Of a stretch of 37,165 nucleotides of DNA, positions 938 through 32,005 are shown piece by piece. Position 1 is the first letter of the stretch, and each line of letters opens with the position of its first letter. The notes beneath the pieces are model-generated. The model was not told the origin of the DNA and made no database searches. It saw only the letters and a program-made list of their open reading frames with translations. The position numbers and the translations under genes were made by a program. Where the stretch lies: NCBI GenBank assembly GCA_012512805.1, contig JAAZDN010000058.1:1-37165 (forward strand), written 5' to 3'. The stretch is from Erysipelothrix sp. Lineage in GTDB: Bacteria > Bacillota_I > Bacilli_A > Erysipelotrichales > Erysipelotrichaceae.

Positions 938-2392
938 TTAATTCAAAAAGTCATGACGTTTTAAGATGAGTCCAATCGCACCTATTATTCCAACAATCCA
1001 GATGCTCACCATCAGCACACCATGGATAAACGTATAGGGTGTTAGATTCATTAACAACTTAATCGGATTCATAAAGGTAAAGGGTAAGAACTCTAAGAAT
1101 TTCTGTCCGATAAAGAGATCGGTTAAGATTAAACTGACGCCTAAAATACCGACGAGGGCTATCAGATTAAGTAGCGCTGTTTTAAACTTCAAACTGAGTA
1201 AGGTATTTAAACTGGCCATCAACATAAAGATTAAGAGTAGGTATGATACAAGTAGTGAAATATAATGACCGACAGTAATCGATTGGAAGCCTATAACATC
1301 AGGAGAACATACCAAAGCACCACCATAACCGATTCCATAACGATCTGTTGTAAACTGAGTAATTGGTCCAAAATTACAGACGTTTTTAAAGGTGGAAAAG
1401 TCTGATGCTAGGATATATTTATTCACAATGTATGAATATTGTTTATGCGGTGCAAAACTACTGAGTGTATGCTTACTAATATGTATAGGATAATTCCAGG
1501 CTGTATAGCCATCGATCATCGTTAATACAAGTGCACATATGAGTATTGGAACAAAGAGAACGATCATCATGCTACTATATGCCGATAATACCTTAATGAT
1601 AAAATAGCGCATCCGTCGCATTGGTGATGACATGATCGTCTTAATGACTCCCGAGTTAACGTCCTTATAAATACTGTCAAAGACAATGACGGTTGATAAG
1701 AAGACAAGCATGACAAAGGCCATATCTAAGTATTTCGTAACAAAGAAACTCGCAGGAAACTTTTGATCAAGATCATAGGGCTGTCCTGTTTTTAAGGCAT
1801 ACATATAATTATTAAAATTGAGAATAAGATTTGAGTAAATGCTTGGATTTACGAAACCTACCTTAAGCTTATGCGACATAACTTCGATCATTTTATGATC
1901 TTCAAGATAGGCGAGCTGAACCTCTAAACTATCATAGTCCAAAAGCTTCTCACCAATAAGTTTTTGATACTCACTGTTTCCACTTTGAATACTTTCTCTT
2001 ACTCCACTAAAATATATATGGCTCAAACTAAAGTATGTCTTTACTTTTTCTTCTTCATCCATTTCATTAAGAAAACGATAGGCAAGGTGATCAAAGTTCT
2101 GTGTATACTCTTTCTCCGCCTCACATCCTGGATTGTCACTATTTAATCCAAGGCAATCAAGATCTAAACGGAGGCGGTTTTGTTCATCTAAAAACATAAT
2201 ATCACGTATTAAGAAGTGATGAATTTCAGTAACTTTATCTTCTACAAAAACACGATATCCCTTCTCTTCTGGAAGTTTTAAACGATTGGGAATGACCAGC
2301 ATTAAAATGGATGCAAGTACAACGACTAGAATAAAGAGTACCTTACGACTTTTAAGTGTACGCACAACATCTTGAAGGATCCATTTAAGCAT
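938..2392 (-). CDS. ABC-2 type transporter permease, tandem paralogue 3
   Basis: Predicted membrane subunit of an ABC exporter, 484 residues. I start it at the ATG at 2392, because GGAGG lies 8 bases upstream and both paralogues begin with the same M-(L/I)-K-W-I-L-Q-D sequence; the reading frame stays open further upstream. Features: short basic N-terminus, TM1 at about 18–38, a large outside domain to about 215, TM2 near 222–242, a cytoplasmic S-G-V-I-K-T-I-M-S-S-P-x-R-R loop typical of ABC-2 permeases, then about four more membrane helices and a KRHDF tail. The ectodomain has C80-x9-C90; a second pair, C339 and C362, lies in the later outside loop after N-C-N-F-G-P-I-T-Q. All four cysteines are kept in the two upstream paralogues. 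Last gene of the operon, ending in a terminator. Substrate unknown. Confidence 0.85.
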   Translation of the reverse strand: MLKWILQDVVRTLKSRKVLFILVVVLASILMLVIPNRLKLPEEKGYRVFVEDKVTEIHHFLIRDIMFLDEQNRLRLDLDCLGLNSDNPGCEAEKEYTQNFDHLAYRFLNEMDEEEKVKTYFSLSHIYFSGVRESIQSGNSEYQKLIGEKLLDYDSLEVQLAYLEDHKMIEVMSHKLKVGFVNPSIYSNLILNFNNYMYALKTGQPYDLDQKFPASFFVTKYLDMAFVMLVFLSTVIVFDSIYKDVNSGVIKTIMSSPMRRMRYFIIKVLSAYSSMMIVLFVPILICALVLTMIDGYTAWNYPIHISKHTLSSFAPHKQYSYIVNKYILASDFSTFKNVCNFGPITQFTTDRYGIGYGGALVCSPDVIGFQSITVGHYISLLVSYLLLIFMLMASLNTLLSLKFKTALLNLIALVGILGVSLILTDLFIGQKFLEFLPFTFMNPIKLLMNLTPYTFIHGVLMVSIWIVGIIGAIGLILKRHDFLN

Positions 2393-5464: not shown

Positions 5465-6725
5465 GGTGGTCACCACCCAAGAGGTCAATCTTTCCAACAT
5501 TGAAGAGATAGGCACGAAGTCCTATAACAATGTAGATGATGATCACAAGCAGATAGACGAGGATATTTACAGAAGATAGTCCACTGATATTATCATTAAA
5601 GCGGTAAGCTAAAAATGGAATAAAGACGCTTAACTTATCCGATACCTCAAATAGTCCTACAAAGAAAATGACGAGTAATCCAAAGAGTGACATCGTTAGT
5701 GTATTTGATGATGAACGAACCTTTGATGCAATAAATTGCATAATGATAATCCATAAACTTAACAGTAACATTCCAGTCGTTAGTGAAAGGATATTATAAA
5801 CAATGAGTGGTACTGTAATATAGATTGGTTGCATATTAAACAAGGTTAAAGGATTAATATTCATTAGCATTGGATGCATAATATTTCCAATACGACTTGG
5901 AGCAACGTTGTATCCAACACGTGTTTGAAGCGCGAGATATATGGACCCAAGTAGAATCGCTATCAAGACTAAGGCAAGTGTATATCCAATTGCAAATAAT
6001 ATTTTTGATATGTAGATTTTCTTACGTGGATACGGTGAGCTAAAGAGTGTTTGATACGTTCTTTGATTGTATTCTTTTGCGAACAAATCATAGTAAAGAA
6101 AGATAACAAAGACCATTGCGATAATTAAGGCGTAGCCTTGAAGTACTTTTCCAGCTAAGTTATTTTGGGTTATCGTAAATTGATTAATATCATCAGGTGT
6201 TAAACTATTCATTAAACTTGTGATACGAACTTGTTCAGCCTTTAAATAGTTTTCTGAGAGATCAAGCTTTGGTAATATCGGTTCCAAATAACTTGGATCA
6301 ATCTGATCTATTAATACTAAAAGTTCTTTATTGATTTCATAGCGATACGGTGTGAGCTCGACGTTTAATCGCCCACCACTAAACTGTGAAGCAAGATTAT
6401 CAAACAAACTAAAAAGTTTTACTGTTTCTATTTCACCACGAAGGCCAGCCAGTAATCCTTTTTCTTTATCTGATAGAGTACTTGGATCTGCCTCCATAAC
6501 CTTTAATGCTTCAGCCTCATGTTCTCTAATTAAATTATACTCAAGACTTTGTAGTGAATAGGCCGTTGATCTTAACTCGACTACTTCTTGAGGTAATATT
6601 GTTAATTCTAAAAAGTCATATACAAAAATTGTTGCGAAAATACTTAAAATAAAGGATAGGGCAACCATTAATTTTACACGGTTACTCAAATAGTATTTTA
6701 AGTCATATTTAATGAGTGTTTTCAT
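5457..6725 (-). CDS. ABC transporter permease (unlike the three tandem paralogues)
   Basis: Second gene of the exporter operon, 422 residues from the ATG at 6725, with GGTGA 5 bases upstream; upstream in-frame TTG and GTG codons overlap the ATPase gene and are less likely. One base separates it from the ATPase stop codon. The protein starts with a short amphipathic segment (MKTLIKYDLKYYL), has TM1 at about 16–36, a long charged outside domain to about 210, a second TM, an F-S-S-P-Y-P-R-K-K cytoplasmic loop typical of ABC-2 permeases, and four further hydrophobic helices. It lacks the cysteine pattern and the WILQD start of the following genes, so it is a distinct subunit, perhaps the constant partner of one or more of them (inference). 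Confidence 0.87.
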   Translation of the reverse strand: MKTLIKYDLKYYLSNRVKLMVALSFILSIFATIFVYDFLELTILPQEVVELRSTAYSLQSLEYNLIREHEAEALKVMEADPSTLSDKEKGLLAGLRGEIETVKLFSLFDNLASQFSGGRLNVELTPYRYEINKELLVLIDQIDPSYLEPILPKLDLSENYLKAEQVRITSLMNSLTPDDINQFTITQNNLAGKVLQGYALIIAMVFVIFLYYDLFAKEYNQRTYQTLFSSPYPRKKIYISKILFAIGYTLALVLIAILLGSIYLALQTRVGYNVAPSRIGNIMHPMLMNINPLTLFNMQPIYITVPLIVYNILSLTTGMLLLSLWIIIMQFIASKVRSSSNTLTMSLFGLLVIFFVGLFEVSDKLSVFIPFLAYRFNDNISGLSSVNILVYLLVIIIYIVIGLRAYLFNVGKIDLLGGDHHD

Positions 6726-26317: not shown

Positions 26318-26332
26318 TTTTATAATCCCCCT

Positions 26333-27604
26333 CTAGAATAGATCATCTCCGGTAATACTTTGTGTTCGTTTACTATAATTTATTGATCGTTTAACAAAGA
26401 AGTCCACGTGCTTTGTCGCCACGACTTCATCATCAAACCAATCGGTTGTTTCAACTAATGCTTCATCTACATCAAAGATGCGTGCATAGCCAATATCTGA
26501 TAGTGAATTGTTCAAGCGATTCTTAACAAATTCTTTAATGACATTTGCCGGTAAGAAATCAAGTTCACCGTTCTCAAAGATCCAATCAATGACGACTTCT
26601 TCTGACGCATAGGCTTCACGTGCTGCTTTTAAAACCGTCACTTCAAGCTCAGCATCAAACCACTCTGGATGTTCATCACGAATAATATTAATCAGTTCAA
26701 TACCAAAGAGACCATGGATTTGTTCTTCCTTTGATGTTGCCTCAATCGCATTACTCATACCCTTAAATATATTCTTATACTTATTAAAGGACATAATAAT
26801 TAAGAATTGTGAGAACAGTGATACGTGTTCAATAAAGAGTGAGAAGAGTAGAATTGATAAGGTATAATCACGATCATCTTCCGTACGGGCTAAGATGGCA
26901 CTTTGATTCAAATAATTCACTCTTTGCATCAGTTCAGGAATATCTTTAATGCGCTCAAACTCATGATTCAAGCCTAATATTTCTAATAGGTGAGCATAGG
27001 CATCTTGATGACGCACTTCACTTTCCGCAAAGGTAAAGCCAACACTTCCAACTTCAGGTTTTGGAATGCGTTTATATAAGTCTCCCCAGAACGTCTTCAC
27101 CGCAACTTCAACTTGGGCAATCGCAAGCATTGCATTTTTAATCGCACTGCGTTCAACCTCATCAATATGAACCTTAAAGTCTTGTATATCTGAGGTGTAG
27201 TTAAACTCAGTATGTAACCAATATGAATGTTGAATGGCTTCCTTATATTCCGCAAGCTCTGGATATTCATAGGGTTTTAAGTTTAATCTAAATTTAAATA
27301 AATCAGGCTTGCGTGCCTGTGTACGCTCAGCACGATATAAGATATATGCCTTTGCGGTTTGTTTATATTCTGATTCTAATAAGACAAGCTCCACAATATC
27401 TTGAATGCCTTCAACTGTAAGTTGGGTTGTAGCTTCATTTGAGATCTTAGTGAGGACTGCCTCTGTTAATACAAGTGCTTCATCTTGATCAAACTCCCCA
27501 GTTTGAACACCAGCCTTAGCAATTGCATTCGTTATTTTTACCGGAATAAATTCCGTAATTGCTCCATTACGTTTAATAATTGTTTTATTCATTATGCTAC
27601 TCAT
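26333..27604 (-). CDS. nrdB: Class I ribonucleotide reductase radical subunit with N-terminal ATP-cone
   Basis: 423 residues from ATG 27604, chosen for AAGGAG 7 bases upstream; the open frame extends 50 codons further, through a promoter-like region. Residues about 7–95 are an ATP-cone (T-I-I-K-R-N-G start, R-A-E-R end), a module normally found on the alpha subunit. The ferritin-like domain has metal ligands E166 (Q-V-E-V-A-V-K), E196-x2-H199, E259 (F-I-E-H) and E294-x2-H297, plus Y203 where the radical Tyr of other classes lies. Glu as first ligand and the AVKTFWG sequence fit class Id enzymes that use a dimanganese cofactor (from family knowledge). dATP would then switch the enzyme off by oligomerising beta. 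First gene of nrdB–nrdA. Confidence 0.92.
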   Translation of the reverse strand: MSSIMNKTIIKRNGAITEFIPVKITNAIAKAGVQTGEFDQDEALVLTEAVLTKISNEATTQLTVEGIQDIVELVLLESEYKQTAKAYILYRAERTQARKPDLFKFRLNLKPYEYPELAEYKEAIQHSYWLHTEFNYTSDIQDFKVHIDEVERSAIKNAMLAIAQVEVAVKTFWGDLYKRIPKPEVGSVGFTFAESEVRHQDAYAHLLEILGLNHEFERIKDIPELMQRVNYLNQSAILARTEDDRDYTLSILLFSLFIEHVSLFSQFLIIMSFNKYKNIFKGMSNAIEATSKEEQIHGLFGIELINIIRDEHPEWFDAELEVTVLKAAREAYASEEVVIDWIFENGELDFLPANVIKEFVKNRLNNSLSDIGYARIFDVDEALVETTDWFDDEVVATKHVDFFVKRSINYSKRTQSITGDDLF

Positions 27605-27680
27605 ATTCCATCTCCTTGCAACTAGTACTATCATATCTAAGATGGAGGTTTCATACAATTTTAAGACCTTGTATTTTTTA

Positions 27681-27709
27681 ATTATATTAATCACAAAGTC
27701 CATCTTGTG
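27681..27709 (-). promoter_or_regulatory. possible nrdB promoter with an overlapping palindrome
   Basis: TATAAT on the minus strand (27681–27686) lies about 77 bases before nrdB. The -35 position coincides with the right arm of CACAAAGTCCATCTTGTG (27692–27709), whose ends CACAA/TTGTG are inverted repeats. This could be an operator, but it does not match the NrdR box consensus well. Confidence 0.4.
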
Positions 27710-27747
27710 TATTTCTGGCATATTTTCACGATATCCAAGTATCTTAT

Positions 27748-27776
27748 TGGACATTAGTTTTAATTCGTAATACTAT
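27748..27776 (+). promoter_or_regulatory. possible promoter of the monooxygenase–reductase operon
   Basis: TGGACA (27748–27753), a 17-base spacer and TACTAT (27771–27776), about 28 bases before the monooxygenase ATG. The repeat CCAA-8-TTGG (27735–27750) overlaps the -35 box. Confidence 0.45.
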
Positions 27777-31703: not shown

Positions 31704-31734
31704 ATATTATGCAATGAATATACCTTACATTCAA
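31704..31734 (-). promoter_or_regulatory. possible ahpC promoter/operator region
   Basis: TAATAT (31704–31709, minus) lies about 32 bases before ahpC; TTGAAT (31729–31734) is 19 bases further up, a long spacer. An inverted repeat TGAAT-9-ATTCA (31715–31733) lies over this spacer. It does not match the PerR box (TTATAATNATTATAA). Confidence 0.3.
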
Positions 31735-31792
31735 TTTATATGACCATTTTTTCACTAGTTTAAAAACATCAAACTTTCACGAGTGAAACCAC

Positions 31793-31936
31793 AAAAAAAG
31801 ATGCATATTATGGTTGCATCTTTTCAAGTTATTTCTTTAAAGGGATAGAATTATGTTAAATCAAATAAATAGGGATATTTATCAGGGATATGATTCAACT
31901 GTAAGTTCTTATCTAACTTACATACTAAGTATAACA
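31793..31936 (-). ncRNA. candidate small RNA or attenuating leader upstream of ahpC
   Basis: Minus strand: TGT-TATACT extended -10 (TATACT 31928–31933) puts the start near 31921. The RNA would open with a perfect hairpin (TGTAAGTT 31922–31915 with AACTTACA 31907–31900, 7-base loop). An AT-rich single-stranded stretch follows, carrying UAUCCCU three times (centred near 31887, 31874 and 31844). It ends in AAAAGATGCA/TGCATCTTTT with seven T (31793–31824). It has no ORF. Promoter, 5' hairpin, C-rich repeats and terminator in about 130 bases look like a small regulatory RNA using C-rich anti-Shine–Dalgarno motifs. Alternatively it is a terminator-controlled leader of ahpCF, which starts 120 bases further on. 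The rest of the 333-base gap holds only the possible ahpC promoter and a TTTCAC-GA-GTGAAA repeat. Confidence 0.55.
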
Positions 31937-32005
31937 GTGAAAATACGAGATAATGTCGTATAATCTTAGAAGGTTTTTATGAATTCATATAAAACAAAGA
32001 GTTCA

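Follow-up and report, generated by a model that had tools for sequence, protein, structure and literature searches.

The window analysed here, a 37,165-nucleotide stretch of DNA from Erysipelothrix sp., carries on its reverse strand a small RNA gene which, judged from its sequence and those of its relatives, is one copy of a multi-copy small RNA (sRNA) family undescribed in Rfam and in the papers searched. We assign a probability of roughly 0.7 to the reading that it is an independent gene whose product is a small regulatory RNA acting in trans, and that it belongs to a new family present in several copies in this bacterial family. An earlier note on this DNA had suggested either a small RNA or an attenuator of the ahpCF genes. 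Its observation is largely real and is confirmed in part, the "small RNA" reading being right and the attenuator reading not; the former is strongly supported by the presence of several copies, by compensatory changes, by a promoter region and a terminator belonging to the RNA itself, and by varied neighbours.

The elements of the locus are listed in Table 1. The extended -10 element described earlier is present, as are the three TATCCCT motifs and the terminator with its T run, whose stem measures 11 bp, and a conserved open reading frame was found in none of the frames, in agreement with the reported absence of one. No consensus -35 hexamer was found at the correct spacing from this -10. The perfect hairpin noted at the start of the RNA (GTAAGTT/AACTTAC) also exists, but the 8 bp attributed to it are reached only by counting position -1, and otherwise it has 7 bp. 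The description of the motif-bearing region as an unstructured linker was wrong, as motifs 1 and 2 fall within a longer second hairpin, whose internal loop holds one of them and whose apical loop holds the other, and only the third is single-stranded. The RNA of the window folds with -27.3 kcal/mol (z = -5.9), and none of 200 shuffled sequences was equally stable.

Table 1. Features of the small RNA locus and its surroundings in the window.
Feature	Position	Strand	Basis or remark
Candidate ahpC promoter, TTGAAT-17-CATAAT	31706..31734	(-)	consensus match only
Small RNA gene, ~129 nt	31793..31921	(-)	copy 1 of 2 in the genome; second copy and matches of the covariance model (R1-R3)
Intrinsic terminator, stem and T run	31793..31825	(-)	folding; compensated stem changes between the two copies of the genome
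Single-stranded linker with near-invariant seed UUCUAUCCC(C/U)UUA	31826..31854	(-)	conservation and unpaired probability
UAUCCCU motif 3, inside the linker	31847-31841	(-)	sequence
Stem-loop 2, UCCC shown in internal and apical loops	31855..31899	(-)	folding and covariation
UAUCCCU motif 2	31871..31877	(-)	sequence
UAUCCCU motif 1	31884..31890	(-)	sequence
Stem-loop 1 (5' hairpin)	31901..31921	(-)	folding and covariation
-10 hexamer TATACT with TG extension, TGTTATACT	31928..31933	(-)	sequence
Upstream box ACGACATTATCTCGTATTTT (-38 to -19), possible regulator site	31940..31959	(-)	putative function

A pattern search with 19 specified bases across the genome of the window (G000) also matched contig C29 at 5994-5975, where a second copy occupies positions 5901-6025. 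Both copies share the first 85 nt of the RNA without change. Their terminator stems differ (GATGCA/TGCATC versus GACGCT/AGCGTC) with pairing retained, and their upstream regions differ except for a box, ACGAyAATTTnnCGTAAATT, located directly before the -10. Three genomes of the genus, G000, G032 and G077, contain 2, 3 and 3 copies, respectively, a total of eight, all of which have this box; some copies in the three genomes sit 3' of sufB and the gene encoding a 5-formyltetrahydrofolate cyclo-ligase, and at this location G077 has its three copies in tandem. The eight copies were aligned with a model built from five of them, and in this alignment 12 pairs were altered on both sides, which 0 of 500 shuffles reached, compared to 5.1 in shuffles and 0 to 4 when the pairing partners were slid.

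The covariance search in related genomes that the earlier note had proposed revealed that the hairpins and the motif-bearing linker are kept in all three genomes of the genus and in most genomes of the family. A model built from the eight genus copies (R2) retrieved full-length relatives from many genera, of which 58 copies were read, and the model rebuilt after this wider collection (R3) matched 193 of 273 genomes (~70%) of the GTDB family, apparently Erysipelotrichaceae, and, elsewhere in the order, 1 of 43 genomes. In a class-wide sample, matches were found in 27 of 36 family genomes (the 36 being counted among the rows listed) versus 3 of 359 others. At least 120 viral-contig stretches carry the 14-base seed, and among the matches listed 80 were retained as loci, not one of which fits the model. 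At the Rfam gathering score, nothing was detected in the window, and the only hits in 20 related loci were two tRNAs, with no sRNA. A T-box leader slightly under its gathering score (89.1 vs 93 bits) was also seen at 1412-1654 (-) of locus L175. Full-text literature searches returned no description of an sRNA for Erysipelothrix, Erysipelotrichaceae or Erysipelotrichales, and a 2024 survey of 50 genomes mentions the group solely for a different motif (PMC11109978).

Nearly all of the 58 copies have a common architecture, in which the first hairpin is followed by a second one whose loop is C-rich, then by the linker UUCUAUCCCCUUA or a near form of it, and finally by a terminator whose loop frequently bears UCCCCU. 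The linker columns of the alignment (165-177) are 86-100% identical, and the stem columns vary and covary: 27 of 27 pairs were altered on both sides (7 of 7 for stem-loop 1), and 96.8% of cells were paired versus 63.8% after shuffling, in an alignment that was itself fitted to the model. Folds made without the model for 61 copies gave a mean z of -6.9, three hairpins in 48 copies, 2.4 unpaired UCCC per copy and a mean unpaired probability of 0.86 for the linker. Copies often stand in tandem, and the genes flanking them change from genus to genus.

Several copies per genome, at times in tandem, would also fit a small mobile or repetitive element with hairpins and a terminator and no regulatory role. 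We regard this as highly improbable, as there are merely one to six copies per genome, compensatory changes occurred between genera, the promoter repeat described below keeps a fixed distance, and the spread is restricted according to the class-wide counts given above.

The attenuator reading, in which the terminator would govern read-through into ahpC as part of an ahpCF leader, took its appeal from the position of the RNA on the same strand as ahpC and about 120 nt 5' of its start. However, the same RNA is present elsewhere in the same genome, and copies in this genome and its relatives stand before, beside or behind unrelated genes. A conserved position 5' of ahpC was not found, the linkage being unique to the genome of the window: G032 (84% complete) carries three copies, and ahpC was not detected in it; the ahpC of G077 lies on a different contig from the copies and its upstream region gave no match, and in Erysipelothrix anatis the region 5' of ahpC is devoid of a copy. 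The varied neighbours and the unlinked ahpC of the relatives are a strong argument against attenuation. In addition, no conserved antiterminator was seen, and ahpC has a candidate promoter of its own beyond the terminator, so that attenuation of ahpCF was not supported and its probability is, in our estimate, minimal. The TTTCAC/GTGAAA repeat reported past the terminator does exist, as a perfect palindrome (TTTCACTCGTGAAA) at 31775-31789 between the terminator and ahpC, the sole such site in the window and perhaps an ahpC operator. The sequence 5' of ahpC in E. anatis (L004, ~2700-2860) holds a different sRNA-like element, unmatched by R3, which combines a -10 of the TATACT type and a T-run terminator with a stem-loop (CACACG..CGTGTG) whose loop is CU-rich.

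Outside the genus of the window, most copies are preceded by a direct repeat of the TCACATAATTTCACATAATT type beginning 59-63 nt 5' of the RNA. The pattern (A/C/T)ACA(T/C)-N5-6-(A/C/T)ACA was found in 34 of 59 non-redundant copies, compared to 3.1 expected from shuffles, with every instance starting at -59 to -63. Because this repeat lies outside the sequence of the model, it provides independent support for the matches as genes with a defined start. Its arrangement suggests a response-regulator site for a dimeric activator of the OmpR type. Two observations count against this part of the preferred reading: the genus of the window has lost the outer repeat and retains another box, with a related repeat closer to the -10, and a gene for an OmpR-type regulator stands next to copies only in E. 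anatis and a single further genus. E. anatis, a member of Erysipelotrichaceae, has about six copies, two of which adjoin a response-regulator and sensor gene pair. On its contig C6 (L207, L209), tandem clusters of 2 and 3 copies lie beside response-regulator genes, one of the clusters also with an ABC transporter, and these regulator genes are candidate regulators of the RNA. The promoter box of the genus was also tried as a regulon marker and discarded, its 13 matches versus 11 for reversed controls being mostly chance.

For a trans-acting regulator of this kind, we propose that an OmpR-type response regulator would bind the upstream 10-11-bp direct repeat and turn the gene on under some stress, that the C-rich seed and loops would base-pair with several mRNAs at their G-rich ribosome-binding sites (AAGGGGAU type), and that translation of these mRNAs would thereby be blocked; multiple copies would give added dose or fine specificity. 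By analogy with known sRNAs, the conserved C-rich stretch probably pairs with mRNAs and shuts off their translation. Searches of the three genus genomes and 20 further genomes yielded no convincing conserved target, which counts against this reading, so the pairing step is drawn by analogy. In the three genus genomes, ARGGGAT-N3-12-ATG gave 51, 42 and 43 matches versus 13, 14 and 5 for reversed controls, an excess of the kind expected for any Shine-Dalgarno-like word. An ARGGGAT ribosome site is common only to smc (AAAGGGGATAT in two genomes) and a DnaD-like gene (AAAGGGATAG and AAGGGGATAG in two genomes), each in 2 of the 3 genomes, and these two genes are the best target leads. The ribosome site of the DnaD-like gene reads AAAAGGGATAG in L252 (G077) and AAAGGGGATAG in L318 (G032), with about 10 bases complementary to the seed. 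In the 20 further genomes, AAGGGGATA-N2-11-ATG matched mostly scattered genes, the recurrent matches being mainly codons within rpoB and secA. The earlier note had pointed to a GGGAU-type site before nrdA; the site (AGGGGGAT) exists, but at 26332-26325 instead of 26322-26329, and nrdA as a target was not supported: when the 31 gene starts of the window were ranked by duplex energy it came third, behind two other genes. The gene 5' of nrdA (26333-27754, (-)) reads in translation as the small subunit of ribonucleotide reductase, with a region resembling an ATP cone at its N terminus.

A 13-nt linker conserved at 86-100% over many genera in the absence of a conserved target could alternatively belong to a protein-binding or titrating RNA, whose near-invariant linker and C-rich loops hold an RNA-binding protein instead of mRNAs; titrating RNAs typically have repeated identical motifs. 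We know of no C-rich-RNA-binding protein of such kind in this bacterial group, and in LhrC, RsaE and FsrA, C-rich motifs like these have been proven to act as seeds that pair with mRNAs (PMC4132741), and we therefore consider a titrating RNA unlikely. The related idea that a C-rich-RNA-binding protein (or both such a protein and mRNAs) would be bound by the linker and the repeated UCCC loops, so that the multi-copy RNA, induced by stress, would serve as a sponge for some global RNA regulator of the family, is likewise doubtful.

The preferred reading, a trans-acting regulator that pairs with mRNAs, gains interest from the organisms concerned, a group that includes both gut commensals and Erysipelothrix, a pathogen of animals, and for which neither Rfam nor the papers searched yielded a described trans-acting sRNA family. 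The presence of the RNA in about 70% of genomes, the fixed promoter repeat and the almost invariant seed make it a likely central post-transcriptional regulator there. It would also be a directly testable case of the UCCC solution arising again outside Listeria, Staphylococcus/Bacillus and Streptococcus, where UCCC seeds mask ribosome sites in LhrC (PMC4132741), RsaE/RoxS (PMC4409812) and the csRNAs (PMC3091779). The comparison with csRNAs and RsaE made in the earlier note was apt for the mode of action, but neither family was matched.

LhrC1-5 of Listeria, which are under a two-component system and show LisRK-dependent induction upon envelope stress, resemble the new family in being multi-copy, in their intrinsic terminator and in having three UCCC sites in loops and a single-stranded linker (PMC4132741), a trait seen here as 2-3 unpaired UCCC in most copies. 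Unlike LhrC, the new family has two hairpins before the seed, another upstream box and another taxon, and neither the window nor the 20 related loci matched an Rfam sRNA at the gathering score. RsaE/RoxS (RF01820) shares C-rich regions with an AUCCCCUU-like seed and has a regulator site, that of ResD/SrrA, ~60-65 nt upstream (PMC4409812); near this position the new family has the direct repeat beginning at -59 to -63, a putative regulator site. The new family usually has several copies and an extra hairpin. That the new family is a distant branch of RsaE/RoxS and not independent would be in line with weak matches to RsaE over its full length (window copy, 20.1 bits; L155, 29.1 bits), with the similar seeds AUCCCCUUU/AUCCCCUUA and with the response-regulator site near -65 of RoxS (PMC4409812). 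We nevertheless hold it to be quite improbable, given that the RF01820 gathering score of 79 bits was passed by 0 of 268 family genomes and by the B. subtilis control, that the R3 search of the class returned no RsaE-like locus, and that the hairpin arrangement and copy number differ. The csRNAs of Streptococcus also come in several similar copies with a direct-repeat activator site and an unpaired region complementary to ribosome sites (PMC3091779), and model-free folds of the new family likewise contain such an unpaired C-rich region. They differ in sequence and structure and in the CiaR box, in place of which the new family has a (T/C)ACAT-type repeat at -60; TTTAAG-N5-TTTAAG was not seen before the -10 in the upstream regions listed. 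Since RsaE scores remain at 20-30 bits, Rfam gives no LhrC match and no CiaR box was seen, the RNA was filed as a separate family. The best reading is thus of a putative trans-acting, Shine-Dalgarno-masking sRNA that would work like LhrC, RsaE/RoxS or the csRNAs while being, by the available tests, a member of none of them.
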